From positions 4,774,001-4,838,000 of the forward strand of contig AP024096.1 in NCBI GenBank assembly GCA_015099395.1: a DNA stretch of 64,000 bases, written 5' to 3'. The translations under genes were made by a program, and so were the position numbers. This document shows, piece by piece, positions 1 through 59,558 of this stretch. The number at the start of each line of letters is the position of its first letter. Within the stretch, counting starts at the first letter, position 1. The stretch is from Ktedonobacteria bacterium brp13 (GTDB lineage: Bacteria; Chloroflexota; Ktedonobacteria; Ktedonobacterales; Ktedonobacteraceae). The notes under the pieces are model-generated. The model saw nothing but the letters and a program-made list of their open reading frames with translations. It searched no databases and had not been told where the DNA came from.

Positions 1-954
1 GGGTGGGGCAAGATACAGGAGTCGATGACTAAAACCCTCCGCAAGCAGGGCATCGACGCCGCCGCCGCCGATGAGCTCGCACTGATCCCAGGTATGGATG
101 AGATCGTCAGCCTGATTAACATTTATCGCAATGCCCGGGATGGTGACTTTGATACCGTCATTATCGATGCCGCACCTACCGGCGAGACAGTGCGCCTGCT
201 GAGCATGCCCGATACGTTCCAGTGGTACGCACAACGACTGATGAAGATGCAGAGCGGCCCACTGAACCTCGCACGCCCACTGATCAAAGCTTTTTTTCCT
301 GCAACCGAGATCCTGGATGCAGTGAATGCTCTCAGCGAGCGCGTCAAGACCTTACGCGAGGTGCTCAGCGATCCCGAGGTCAGTTCGTATCGCCCGGTCG
401 TTAACCCTGAACGTATGGTGATTAAAGAGGCTCTGCGCGCTGAAACCTACCTGGCGCTCTTTAACTATCCCATCGACGGCGTGATCTGTAACCGAGTCAT
501 CCCGGCCGCCGACTACCAGGATGCCTTCATGCAGGATATGTACCGCACGCAGGAGAAGCAGCGCCAACGTATTCACCAGACGTTTGCACCCCTACCGATC
601 TGGGAGGCTCCCTATCGCTCACGCGAGATCCTGGGCATCGACCAGTTAAATGGACTGGCAAACACGATCTTTGGTGAACAAGATCCTACCCAAATCTTTT
701 ATCGGGGAGCGATCCAGGAGATCGTCCGCTCAGGCGATAGCTATATCCTGCGCCTCCCACTGCCCCATGTAGAGATGAACAAGGTCCTGATGAGCAAGAA
801 AGGCGACGAGATGGTAATCGAGATAGGTAACTTCAAACGCGACATCACGCTGCCTGCTATGCTTGCCAGCCAGGAGGCTACTGTTGCGAAATTCGTTAAC
901 GGCTCTCTGGAGATCCACTTTAACGCTTCCGCTGAAGCCGATAAATCTGCTTAA
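1..954 (+). CDS. ArsA/GET3-family ATPase, C-terminal part (5' end outside window)
   Basis: The reading frame is already open at base 1, so the gene starts to the left and lacks its N-terminal P-loop here. The first ATG inside the window is at 25. The visible part has the family's FDTVIIDAAPTGETVRLLSMP block, which corresponds to the DTAPTGHTLRLL segment of ArsA/Get3 ATPases, and a C-terminal beta-rich domain of about 80 residues (IQEIVRSGDSYILRLPLP onward) typical of bacterial ArsA-like proteins. These are cytosolic MinD/ParA-like ATPases. Bacterial members without an arsenite pump gene nearby have no settled role, and no arsenic genes are visible. Family assignment is firm; the substrate is unknown. 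Confidence 0.85.
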   Translation, partial: GWGKIQESMTKTLRKQGIDAAAADELALIPGMDEIVSLINIYRNARDGDFDTVIIDAAPTGETVRLLSMPDTFQWYAQRLMKMQSGPLNLARPLIKAFFPATEILDAVNALSERVKTLREVLSDPEVSSYRPVVNPERMVIKEALRAETYLALFNYPIDGVICNRVIPAADYQDAFMQDMYRTQEKQRQRIHQTFAPLPIWEAPYRSREILGIDQLNGLANTIFGEQDPTQIFYRGAIQEIVRSGDSYILRLPLPHVEMNKVLMSKKGDEMVIEIGNFKRDITLPAMLASQEATVAKFVNGSLEIHFNASAEADKSA

Positions 955-980
955 ACAGCTTTTTCAGGACAGCCAACCCA

Positions 981-1023
981 CAGAGGAGAGGGGCGTACTG
1001 TACCAGTACACTCTTCTCCCCTG
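981..1023. other. Long hairpin after the ArsA-like gene
   Basis: Two arms of about 20 bp pair with only two mismatches around a 3-base loop (TAC). The inner stem GTACTG/CAGTAC is perfect. It begins 27 bp after the stop codon. No U-tract follows, so it is not a standard intrinsic terminator, but it could end or protect the upstream transcript. Confidence 0.5.
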
Positions 1024-1039
1024 GAGCGTCTTATAATGG

Positions 1040-1500
1040 GGCGTCTTCCTCGTAGTCTACCTCAGTCAGGAACCCTGTCCCCTAAACGGGATGGGCTTGT
1101 AGAGATGGGGTGGTTTCTGCCCGTCTTCTCTGCAAGCTTACCTGACCAGTCCCAGCCAGGACTGTTCCTTGCATGCCCCTTGGGGCGGGAAACGGTTATC
1201 GGGCTACGATAGCGGCAATGTTCAAGAACGTACCAATGCGTGCATGCCAGCGCATTGCTCTATAACTTCTGAGTTAACCAGGTCTACGAGGGTTAAGCCA
1301 GTGCTCAGGAGACGTGCAGACCGCTATCATCGACGAGGCACACATTACTTTGTGCGGAAAAGGGGGCCAGCCATCTCTGGCATTGAAGGACAGACCGCAC
1401 TTCTGTTCTTCCCCCGCAAGGGGACGGCTTGAAACATTGTGCGTCTGCGGACGCCTTTCTTTCCTCCCATAGCCTGAAGGCGTATGGGTCCCCAGAAAGG
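1040..1500 (+). ncRNA. Candidate large structured RNA (possibly standalone omega/HEARO-type RNA)
   Basis: This 460-base stretch between two genes has no convincing protein but pairs with itself densely. Perfect or near-perfect stems include 1095-1105 with 1127-1137, 1147-1152 with 1159-1164, 1175-1178 with 1183-1186, 1208-1215 with 1321-1328 (closing a multibranch), 1234-1240 with 1251-1257, 1269-1279 with 1291-1308, 1338-1342 with 1351-1355, 1366-1370 with 1377-1381, 1412-1415 with 1420-1423 around a GCAA tetraloop, 1441-1445 with 1450-1454, and 1454-1460 with 1494-1500. A TATAAT lies at 1032-1037 without a good -35. I do not see RNase P, tmRNA, SRP or known riboswitch core motifs. Ktedonobacteria are known for many standalone HEARO/omega RNAs (IscB guides), so that is my leading guess. 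Strand is inferred. Confidence 0.5.
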
Positions 1501-1699
1501 ATTTCTTATGGGTGTCTGTTTTAGCGTAGAATGATACCTCTGGTACTTGACACCTGTTCCAATTACCCTCTATTATGAACGCTGATATACAAATTATTAC
1601 CCCTATATTGAAAATCCGGGAGCGGATCTTGCCCTCCTTCATTAGCAGCGTAATAAGATATGCAGGGGAGAGCATTGTGCTCTTCAGCCATCGGAAATT

Positions 1700-4504
1700 A
1701 TGTATAATAAAAATATACCGCAGACAACATCGACGACACTACAACAACAGATAGCATCCCTGACATCCTGTATTGAGCGCGCGCGGAAGGTGTTACAACA
1801 CGAGCAGCGCACCAACCACCAGGATCAGGCGATTAAGCCAGGGGGAGTAGAGGCGTTCACCAGAAACTGGTGTGCCGAGGTCAATGCTATCTGCCAGTCG
1901 GCAGGGCTTGATCCAGCCCCTCTGCAACATTTTGCAGACCACTTGAAAGACTATCATCAACGCGATCCCATGCAGCGCGCAACGAATCTACGCGCCGCTC
2001 TGGCTACCCTGAACGATCTCGCTGCGATCAAACAGGAGCTTGCACAGCCTCAGGAGCATACCCTCTCCGCACATGCTCCACACGTTCCTCACTCTTCACA
2101 GGTCACACCACCTCGTGTTGCAGCCGCTGGGATTGATACTCCAGGCAAGCGCAGCAGTACGCCGACCAGATTTCCGGCAGCGAAAGAGCCCGCACCCAGG
2201 GTTGCATCCACGCCTGCATCAACATCTGCGAGTACACCCAGATATAAGAAAAGTATCGAAGAATTAAAAGAGGATATCCCGCCGGCGATCCCTAATCCGA
2301 TCCAGCTTGAGGCCGGTATGACTCCAGGCCACACCTCGCTGACCCTGCTGAGCGCAGACATCACAGCGGTCCCTGGTGTAGGACCTACGGCGGCCAACAA
2401 ACTGCGCTCGCTCGGAGTGCGGACTGTACGCGATCTGCTGTACTACTTCCCACGTGAACATCGTGACTATAGCAGGTTAGAGAAGATCGCTCATGTCCCT
2501 TACAATGAGCTCACAACGACAATGGGACTGGTCTGGGAGGCCAAGACACTACGAACCCAGAATGGACGCTCACGCACAACTGCGAAGATCTCAGACGAAT
2601 CTGGCTCACTGAATGTGACCTGGTTCAACCAGCCATATCTACTGAAACAGCTGCAGAATGCGCAGGGCAACTATATTGTGGTCACGGGCATCAAGCAGCG
2701 CTTCGGCAACCGTGTCGACTTCAATGTACGGAGCCATGAGCTCCCGGAGCAAGGTGATCTGTTAAACACAGGACGCATGGTCCCGATCTATCCGTTGACA
2801 GAAGGGCTGCACGCCAAGTCGCTACGACGCTTCACCAAGTACGTGGTCGATCGCTACGCAACAATGGTCCCCGATCATCTGCCGCCTACTGTAATCGAGA
2901 TGGGACACTTAATGCCACTCCCGACGGCGATCACTCAGTATCATTATCCGGACAACGAAGAGCAACGTGCGACTGCCCAGCGCCGACTGGCCTTCGATGA
3001 GCTCTTCGCTATGCAGCTTGGCATGCAGGAGAGACGCAGCCGCTGGAAGCACGAAGGTCCACATGGACGCGCCTTCAATCTCTACCACGACCGCATCTTT
3101 CTGACACCACCTGAACCGAACATGATCTTCGACCATGAGCAACCAGCCAGTCTCGTACCGGCACTGACCAGTTCGACGCTCTGGTCGGTCATCGAGAACG
3201 ATCAGCCGCTAGAAGGGACACTCCCTTTCACCTTCACACCCGCACAGCACCGTGTCATCCGCGAGATCTTCGGTGATCTCGCGAAGACAGAGCCGATGAG
3301 TCGCCTGCTACAGGGTGACGTCGGTGCTGGTAAGACCGCGGTCGCCGCAGCCTGCCTGCTGATGGCCGCGCTCAATGGCTATCAGGGAGCGATCATGGCT
3401 CCGACCGAACTGCTGGCAGAGCAACACGCCCGCAGTATCAGCAAGATGCTAGAACCCTTCGGTATCCATACCGTATTGCTGACCGGTAGCCAGAGGCAGC
3501 GCGAGCGCCAGCAGGCCCGCATCTCCCTGGAAAGCGGTGAGGCCGCAGTCGCCATCGGTACACACGCGTTGATTCAGGACGACGTTATCTTCCGCAGCCT
3601 GGGACTGGTCATCATCGATGAGCAGCATCGCTTCGGCGTCGAGCAGCGTGACGCCCTGCGCCAGAAGGGTCTCCATCCACATATGCTGGTCATGACTGCT
3701 ACGCCGATCCCACGCACGCTCTCGCTCACACTCTATGGCGATCTGGACATCTCGATCATCGACCAACTCCCACCGGGCCGTATCAAGATCATCACCCGCT
3801 GGCGTACTGGCACACGCAGGAACGAAGCCTATACCAAGGTGTTGGAACAGGTACTGGAAGGACGGCAGGCCTTTATCATCTGCCCACTGATCGAAGAGTC
3901 CGATTCGTTGGCTGCGAAAGCCGCAGTCACAGAATACGAACGACTACGGCGTGAGGTCTTCCCAAACCAGCGCCTCGGCCTCCTGCACGGCGGGATGAAG
4001 GCCGCTGAAAAAGATCAGATCATGAACAGTTTCCGCAATCATGAGCTCGACATCCTGGTTGCCACCTCGGTCATCGAGGTCGGCATCGATATCCCGAATG
4101 CCAGCGTCATGGTCATCGAGGATGCCGATCGCTTCGGCCTCTCGCAGCTGCATCAGTTTCGCGGACGCGTCGGACGTGGCAAGCACCAATCCTACTGCTA
4201 CGTACTCAGCGCCGATGCCAGCGTACAGGCCCAGGAGCGGCTCGGAGTCTTTCAGGAGACCGACGACGGCTTTAAGCTCTCCGAAGAGGACCTGCGTCTA
4301 CGTGGTCCAGGCGACTTCATCGGCATACGGCAGAGCGGCATGCCAGAGATGCGCATCGCCAGCCTCAGCGATACTGTGCTTATCGAGCAGGCCCGCGCCA
4401 TTGCCGAACGGCTCTGGCAGAGTGATCCCTACCTGCGTAAGCCAGAACACAGTCTGCTACGTGAACGCATGCATCTCTTCTGGCAAAACATGATGGCAAA
4501 TTAG
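1700..4504 (+). CDS. recG: ATP-dependent DNA helicase RecG
   Basis: RecG is a superfamily 2 branch-migrating helicase that remodels stalled forks and Holliday junctions. The 934-residue product has a proline-rich linker (about 125-190), an HhH-like VPGVGPTAANKLRSLGV segment and wedge/OB domain (about 215-400), Walker A GDVGAGKT at 539-546, DEQH box at 640-643 followed by the RecG-specific RFGVEQR, the MTATPIPRTL motif, and C-terminal HQFRGRVGRG. It is longer than E. coli RecG because of an extra ~210-residue N-terminal extension, which is common in Chloroflexota and similar phyla. The ATG start at 1700 has only a weak ribosome site. It stands alone between the structured region and ackA. Confidence 0.97.
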   Translation: MYNKNIPQTTSTTLQQQIASLTSCIERARKVLQHEQRTNHQDQAIKPGGVEAFTRNWCAEVNAICQSAGLDPAPLQHFADHLKDYHQRDPMQRATNLRAALATLNDLAAIKQELAQPQEHTLSAHAPHVPHSSQVTPPRVAAAGIDTPGKRSSTPTRFPAAKEPAPRVASTPASTSASTPRYKKSIEELKEDIPPAIPNPIQLEAGMTPGHTSLTLLSADITAVPGVGPTAANKLRSLGVRTVRDLLYYFPREHRDYSRLEKIAHVPYNELTTTMGLVWEAKTLRTQNGRSRTTAKISDESGSLNVTWFNQPYLLKQLQNAQGNYIVVTGIKQRFGNRVDFNVRSHELPEQGDLLNTGRMVPIYPLTEGLHAKSLRRFTKYVVDRYATMVPDHLPPTVIEMGHLMPLPTAITQYHYPDNEEQRATAQRRLAFDELFAMQLGMQERRSRWKHEGPHGRAFNLYHDRIFLTPPEPNMIFDHEQPASLVPALTSSTLWSVIENDQPLEGTLPFTFTPAQHRVIREIFGDLAKTEPMSRLLQGDVGAGKTAVAAACLLMAALNGYQGAIMAPTELLAEQHARSISKMLEPFGIHTVLLTGSQRQRERQQARISLESGEAAVAIGTHALIQDDVIFRSLGLVIIDEQHRFGVEQRDALRQKGLHPHMLVMTATPIPRTLSLTLYGDLDISIIDQLPPGRIKIITRWRTGTRRNEAYTKVLEQVLEGRQAFIICPLIEESDSLAAKAAVTEYERLRREVFPNQRLGLLHGGMKAAEKDQIMNSFRNHELDILVATSVIEVGIDIPNASVMVIEDADRFGLSQLHQFRGRVGRGKHQSYCYVLSADASVQAQERLGVFQETDDGFKLSEEDLRLRGPGDFIGIRQSGMPEMRIASLSDTVLIEQARAIAERLWQSDPYLRKPEHSLLRERMHLFWQNMMAN

Positions 4505-59383: not shown

Positions 59384-59468
59384 GGAGAGATGTCAGAGTG
59401 GTCGAATGTGCCGCTCTCGAAAAGCGGTAAGGTGCAAGCCTTCGTGGGTTCGAATCCCACTCTCTCCG
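59384..59468 (+). tRNA. tRNA-Ser (anticodon CGA)
   Basis: Acceptor GGAGAGA pairs with TCTCTCC. The anticodon stem CCGCT/AGCGG encloses CTCGAAA, so the anticodon is CGA (59418-59420), reading UCG. A long variable arm follows, as in class II tRNAs, then GGGTTCGAATCCC. No encoded CCA. Confidence 0.97.
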
Positions 59469-59473
59469 CTCCC

Positions 59474-59558
59474 GGAGGAGTCTCATAGTGGTCTAGTGAG
59501 CACGACTGGAAATCGTGTAAGGTGCAAGCCTTCGTGGGTTCAAATCCCACCTCCTCCG
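59474..59558 (+). tRNA. tRNA-Ser (anticodon GGA)
   Basis: Acceptor GGAGGAG pairs with CTCCTCC. Anticodon stem CACGA/TCGTG with loop CTGGAAA gives GGA (59508-59510), reading UCC/UCU. It follows the first tRNA by five bases and shares its variable and T arms almost exactly, so the two arose by duplication. Confidence 0.97.

Follow-up and report, generated by a model that had tools for sequence, protein, structure and literature searches.

A HEARO (omega) RNA without an adjacent iscB lies on a short mobile element of Ktedonobacteria bacterium brp13 that in many of its other copies sits at a host start codon

What is the densely paired sequence that separates an arsA-like gene from recG in Ktedonobacteria bacterium brp13? 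We studied it in a 64-kb stretch of the 8.88-Mb genome (AP024096.1, positions 4,774,001 to 4,838,000, forward strand), hereafter the window. The initial annotation had flagged window positions 1040 to 1500 as a candidate large structured RNA, perhaps of the HEARO/omega kind with no IscB beside it, or else a member of a new class. Its description of dense pairing was sound: the predicted fold of these 461 bases has an energy of -184 kcal/mol, compared to -162.1 kcal/mol (standard deviation, 6.4) for dinucleotide shuffles (z = -3.4), none of 100 shuffles folded as well, and the stems covary in relatives. The three structural details it had singled out are all present in the sequence. In the closing stem, which belongs to the omegaRNA, GTCAGG at 1065 to 1070 pairs with CCTGAC at 1141 to 1146; the GCAA tetraloop hairpin (CCCC-GCAA-GGGG, 1414 to 1425) and the CTGCGG hairpin (1441 to 1454) are located in a 3' tail outside the core matched by Rfam.

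A cmscan search of window positions 1 to 4000 with all 4227 Rfam families, the kind of check that had been proposed, gave HEARO (RF02033) as the sole convincing match, at 1065 to 1348 on the plus strand (97.6 bits, E value of 5.6e-20, model positions 1 to 211, i.e., full length; gathering threshold, 83 bits). This copy also passed the cut-off when the entire 64 kb was scanned and was the sole match other than tRNAs; in a whole-genome HEARO search with other settings it scored 71.5 bits, under the cut-off. Two tRNA genes lie side by side at 59384 to 59468 and 59474 to 59558 (+). HEARO is the omegaRNA of IscB and IsrB, and the window RNA agrees with it in the full-length covariance match, the conserved helices, the 5' position of the guide, and an RTGR motif at the far end. 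It differs from the model in its extra hairpin insertions (284 bases in the core versus 211 model positions) and in having no iscB at the locus: no such open reading frame (ORF) was found directly downstream, at 1349 to 1700, and the next gene is recG, which together with the arsA-like gene is its nearest neighbor. The RNA at 1065 to 1348 belongs to the omega (IscB-guide) RNAs and has no iscB beside it, as had been guessed from the sequence; the genome contains 35 HEARO matches.

The annotation had also pointed to homologues with compensatory changes as a test of the fold, and these were found. We aligned 28 HEARO RNAs drawn from brp13 itself, from its genus-mates, and from further genera in the family; the consensus comprises 42 pairs, 30 of which have changed on both sides. 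Paired cells made up 97.0% of the real alignment, compared to 75.2% after shuffling and 34 to 44% in a slid control in which pairing partners were shifted by 1 to 3 columns, which destroyed the signal; cells with changes on both sides numbered 239, 65, and 30 to 55, respectively. Covariation extends to internal helices 5, 6, and 7, which are distant from the element ends, and compensatory changes in helix 6 divide the subfamilies inside the brp13 genome. ORFs do overlap the region (e.g., 1169 to 1432 on the plus strand and 1274 to 1675 on the minus strand), but the conservation of the RNA, its covariation, and its dispersed copies are explained without them, and protein coding is not needed as a cause of the conservation.

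The limits drawn in the annotation need revision. While its structured RNA stands, the omegaRNA occupies 1065 to 1348 within a multicopy mobile element spanning 1065 to 1507, which is followed by ATGG at 1508 to 1511; bases 1040 to 1064 are host flank, outside the element, and include a would-be guide at 1049 to 1064. BLAST comparison with the other genomic HEARO loci delimits a 447-bp unit, 1065 to 1511 (443 bases plus a 4-base target), that reads GTCAGGAACC...GGATTTCTT followed by ATGG, the junction being TTCTT/ATGG. The element has sharp ends, unrelated flanks, and no recognizable protein gene. We found 19 copies that share 90 to 100% pairwise identity and all have different left flanks; 4 match the consensus exactly, and the window copy departs from it at 3 positions. 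The unit is a recently amplified dispersed repeat of the brp13 genome. A second stand-alone subfamily (L006, L008, L011, and L012) has the right-end tail in common with the window element. The best matches in genus-mates reach 72 to 83% identity at most, and the arsA-recG intervals of three genus-mates (G001, G003, and G004) lack the element.

The right end is predicted to form an imperfect hairpin, CCTTTCT...AGAAAGG (1454 to 1500, +). Similar hairpins close IscB-bearing elements and the solo elements of G012, a genome of another genus (g9), and the structure is likely the end recognized by a transposase. None of the genome's three Y1_Tnp matches clearly belongs to this element family: they are a TnpA beside a tnpB-like gene, a sequence with an internal stop beside a GTGAAC-type IscB element, and a partial match. 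Like MITE-like nonautonomous derivatives of IS200/IS605, the window element is short and multicopy, with end hairpins and no target duplication, but it differs from them in carrying a full-length guide RNA scaffold.

All mapped copies of this group have RTGR at the right end. IscB-bearing elements end in AAAG/ATGG or TTAG/ATGA, and the second stand-alone subfamily is followed by ATGA or GTGG; since the right ends read ATGG, ATGA, or GTGG across groups, the target is the tetranucleotide RTGR, which is not part of the element. RTGR is already present in the orthologous empty sites of other copies, and the empty sites in G001 to G004 show insertion immediately 5' of it without target duplication. 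Target motifs measured for some IsrB proteins are NTGA or NTGG, which includes ATGG (PMC9581776), and by analogy RTGR, which would lie 3' of the junction once the site is rejoined, is a putative target-adjacent motif.

At the left end, the IscB omegaRNA has a guide of about 17 nucleotides located 5' (PMC9640706). The corresponding host bases of the window copy, CTCGTAGTCTACCTCA (16 nucleotides, 1049 to 1064, +), are unique to it and form the predicted guide, which may extend to about 20 nucleotides from about 1044. The element begins at GTCAGG, and the left flank is different in every copy, as would be expected for per-copy guides. A search of the 8.88-Mb genome for a second target consisting of CTCGTAGTCTACCTCA with a 3' RTGR, allowing up to 3 mismatches, returned only the locus itself, where the element's GTCA stands in place of RTGR.

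The 35 HEARO RNAs compare with 11 IscB genes (PF14239) in the brp13 genome, which leaves about 24 stand-alone HEARO RNAs; the gap between the two numbers is narrower in most of the family's other genomes. Seven of the 11 iscB genes, one per distinct copy group, were scanned and all encode RRXRR and HNH domains; all 4 tested of those 7 matched NCBIfam guided_IscB (NF040563). The window scaffold is approximately 68 to 71% identical to IscB-linked scaffolds over part of its length. IscB-bearing elements of the L002 and L003 groups (about 1.56 to 1.58 kb) have the same right-end hairpin and RTGR target, and the GTCAGG start is common to the window element, L002, L003, and L005; the IscB-bearing elements of brp13 differ in carrying iscB and in lacking a Shine-Dalgarno-like right end. 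Stand-alone HEARO RNAs are already known in Ktedonobacteria. Altae-Tran et al. reportedly described in 2021 stand-alone omegaRNAs in Ktedonobacter racemifer, where HEARO RNAs outnumber adjacent IscB genes and are presumed to act in trans. The window element belongs to a different sequence family, and to our knowledge the 447-bp family is a further case of the same phenomenon. G025, a 13.7-Mb genome of another genus, has solo HEARO elements of about 410 to 430 bp that are of the GTGAAC type and end at TATAAA (L254 to L258, L263, L268, L278, and L309); these make up another lineage of elements that carry an omegaRNA alone.

Many insertions lie at the very start of genes. In at least 10, and probably 14, of the 23 mapped stand-alone copies, RTGR is the start codon of a host gene; for the 10, the start position is backed by a nearby Pfam domain or an aligned orthologue, and the other 4 are probable. 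The genes concerned encode leucyl aminopeptidase (pepA, L014), a metallo-beta-lactamase fold protein (L024), a HicB-like protein (L021), a caspase-TPR protein (L028), a response regulator (L027), an FtsH-like protein (L026), an HD domain protein (L045), a glutaredoxin-like protein (L047), a nucleotidyl transferase (L011), and a conserved protein (L029); the less certain copies are L006 (RadC with a long N-terminal extension), L015, L018, and L030. Genus-mate orthologues of the genes at L011, L029, L024, L045, and L014 have the same start residue without the element. At L024 and L029 the native leader, including its Shine-Dalgarno sequence, is recognizably the same in genus-mates up to the junction, so insertion took place between the Shine-Dalgarno sequence and the ATG, with no duplication. 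Ten of 23 has a probability of 5e-10 if 3% of noncoding ATGG sites are starts. That rate came from a home-made gene caller run on the window, whose 63% coding is probably too low, and we therefore also give the value at a pessimistic 10%, 3e-5.

The pattern is not confined to brp13. In G025, 7 to 10 of the 22 elements that carry iscB and have an RTGR target lie at gene starts, among them those of gyrase/topoisomerase IV A, glutamine synthetase, and a HIT protein; right ends there were placed by script to within a few bases, with the longest frame favored, which may make the count of 10 a little too high, and in 7 of the 10 the Pfam domains are positioned in keeping with the start. Two solo elements of G012 also open frames at ATGG, and on visual inspection one of these looks PIG-L-like. 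Docking at start codons therefore characterizes the RTGR group and not just the brp13 genome. Within brp13, none of the 5 mapped IscB-bearing copies is clearly at a start codon, in contrast to their G025 relatives, and the G025 elements of the GTGAAC type that end at TATAAA, unlike the RTGR group, all lie away from start codons. Docking may reflect either a preference at insertion or survival afterwards, each of which is compatible with the data. The literature that we searched makes no mention of start-codon docking of HEARO/IscB elements; earlier reports are possible, and this pattern may be the part of our findings that is new.

The hairpin stem contains a Shine-Dalgarno-like AAAGGA, 6 bases upstream of the ATG (1496 to 1501, + in the window copy). 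Of the 23 stand-alone copies, 20 have AAAGGA, 1 has AAAGGG, and 2 have neither; AAAGGA is also present in the G012 elements. We considered a replacement Shine-Dalgarno sequence as the cause of docking and find it doubtful, because IscB-bearing G025 elements without AAAGGA also dock and because AAAGGA is predicted to be mostly paired in the terminal hairpin of most copies, and may therefore mask rather than rescue translation.

The window copy itself is not at a gene start, since its ATGG opens a frame of only 8 codons. It follows the arsA-like gene, is preceded at a distance of 27 bases by an exact TATAAT (1032 to 1037, +), and lies upstream of the recG promoter (TTGACA-18-TATTAT, 1547 to 1576). 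As a possible -10 element, the TATAAT would start a transcript some 20 bases ahead of the mobile element; a promoter scan found no match for a -35 there, and with the -35 this weak we infer transcription of the window copy only provisionally. Hexamers within one mismatch of TATAAT occur 13 to 90 bases upstream of 14 of the 23 stand-alone copies, compared to about 5 expected from a background of 23%. The recG promoter region (1534 to 1585) is about 92% identical in genus-mates, and the remaining intergenic region is not; in the relative L083, the 22-bp GTACTTGACACATGTTCCAATT part of this region is also present inverted.

We propose, as the likely explanation, that the window locus is a stand-alone omegaRNA on a short nonautonomous relative of IscB/IS200-IS605-like elements that is transcribed from host promoters and retained by IscB in trans. 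The RNA family, its mobility, the RTGR target, the empty sites, and the docking are observed. An upstream host promoter would yield an RNA beginning with host flank (the guide) and continuing into the omegaRNA, which one of the genome's IscB proteins would bind in trans. Excision by a transposase would leave a rejoined site, CTCGTAGTCTACCTCA-ATGG, that recreates the guide match together with RTGR; IscB would cut this site, and repair from an occupied copy would thereby restore the element. The occupied site would escape cutting because the element's GTCA takes the place of RTGR. Since the guide lies outside the element, the element cannot itself carry the guide's promoter, and docking at a start codon would bring both the guide and the omegaRNA downstream of a promoter of the host.

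It is also conceivable, though rather unlikely, that the element is purely a parasite, its omegaRNA stems being kept as DNA hairpins needed by the transposase and no longer guiding anything. The first stem-loop and the right-end hairpin are indeed located at the element ends, and a recent burst with 4 consensus-identical copies has given selection little time to act on the function of the RNA. On the other hand, the covarying helices 5, 6, and 7 are far from the ends, the helix 6 changes between subfamilies fit an RNA that was functional at least ancestrally, and 11 IscB genes are still available. Much less probable is adoption by the host as a 5' leader, in which the omegaRNA controls the downstream gene through a masked Shine-Dalgarno sequence or IscB binding, or guides an IscB regulator. 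The 10 to 14 docked copies would suit such a role, as would an AAAGGA that is at the right distance but mostly paired; yet the insertion sites are unshared with genus-mates in the cases examined and the copies are near-identical and recent, so there is no sign of long-term conservation, and the window copy precedes no start codon. We give practically no weight to another large RNA class (RNase P, tmRNA, GOLLD, ROOL, or OLE) or a wholly new one. The annotation had already judged that RNase P, tmRNA, and SRP do not fit, and the return of HEARO alone from 4227 families bears this out and excludes its new-class alternative for 1065 to 1348.

Retention by IscB in trans, our preferred reading, could be studied in brp13 as a natural system for testing, with IscB working in trans, the model that a nuclease retains the element: it offers about two dozen nuclease-less guide RNAs, 11 candidate IscB partners, and relatives whose empty sites are clean. 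We speculate, tentatively, that RTGR HEARO/IscB elements accumulate between the Shine-Dalgarno sequence and the start codon because only there are guide and omegaRNA reliably transcribed by the host. Should that be so, it is possible that guide expression decides which insertions survive and that compact solo elements exploit IscB in trans; selection of docking for guide transcription would explain how a guide is expressed when it lies beyond the element's own ends.

We also noted two variations among IscB-bearing elements. L009 and L010 share an altered left end and about 15 to 20 upstream bases, CTTTGTAAAATGTGG, and differ in their right flanks, as if one copy had moved with a fixed guide. 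Three IscB loci (L046, 1832 to 4195, +; L048, 1854 to 4216, -; L049, 1837 to 4200, -) have a group II intron between the omegaRNA and iscB, with matches to Rfam RF02012 and RF00029 and a 620-amino-acid ORF, and this intron may have travelled inside the element.
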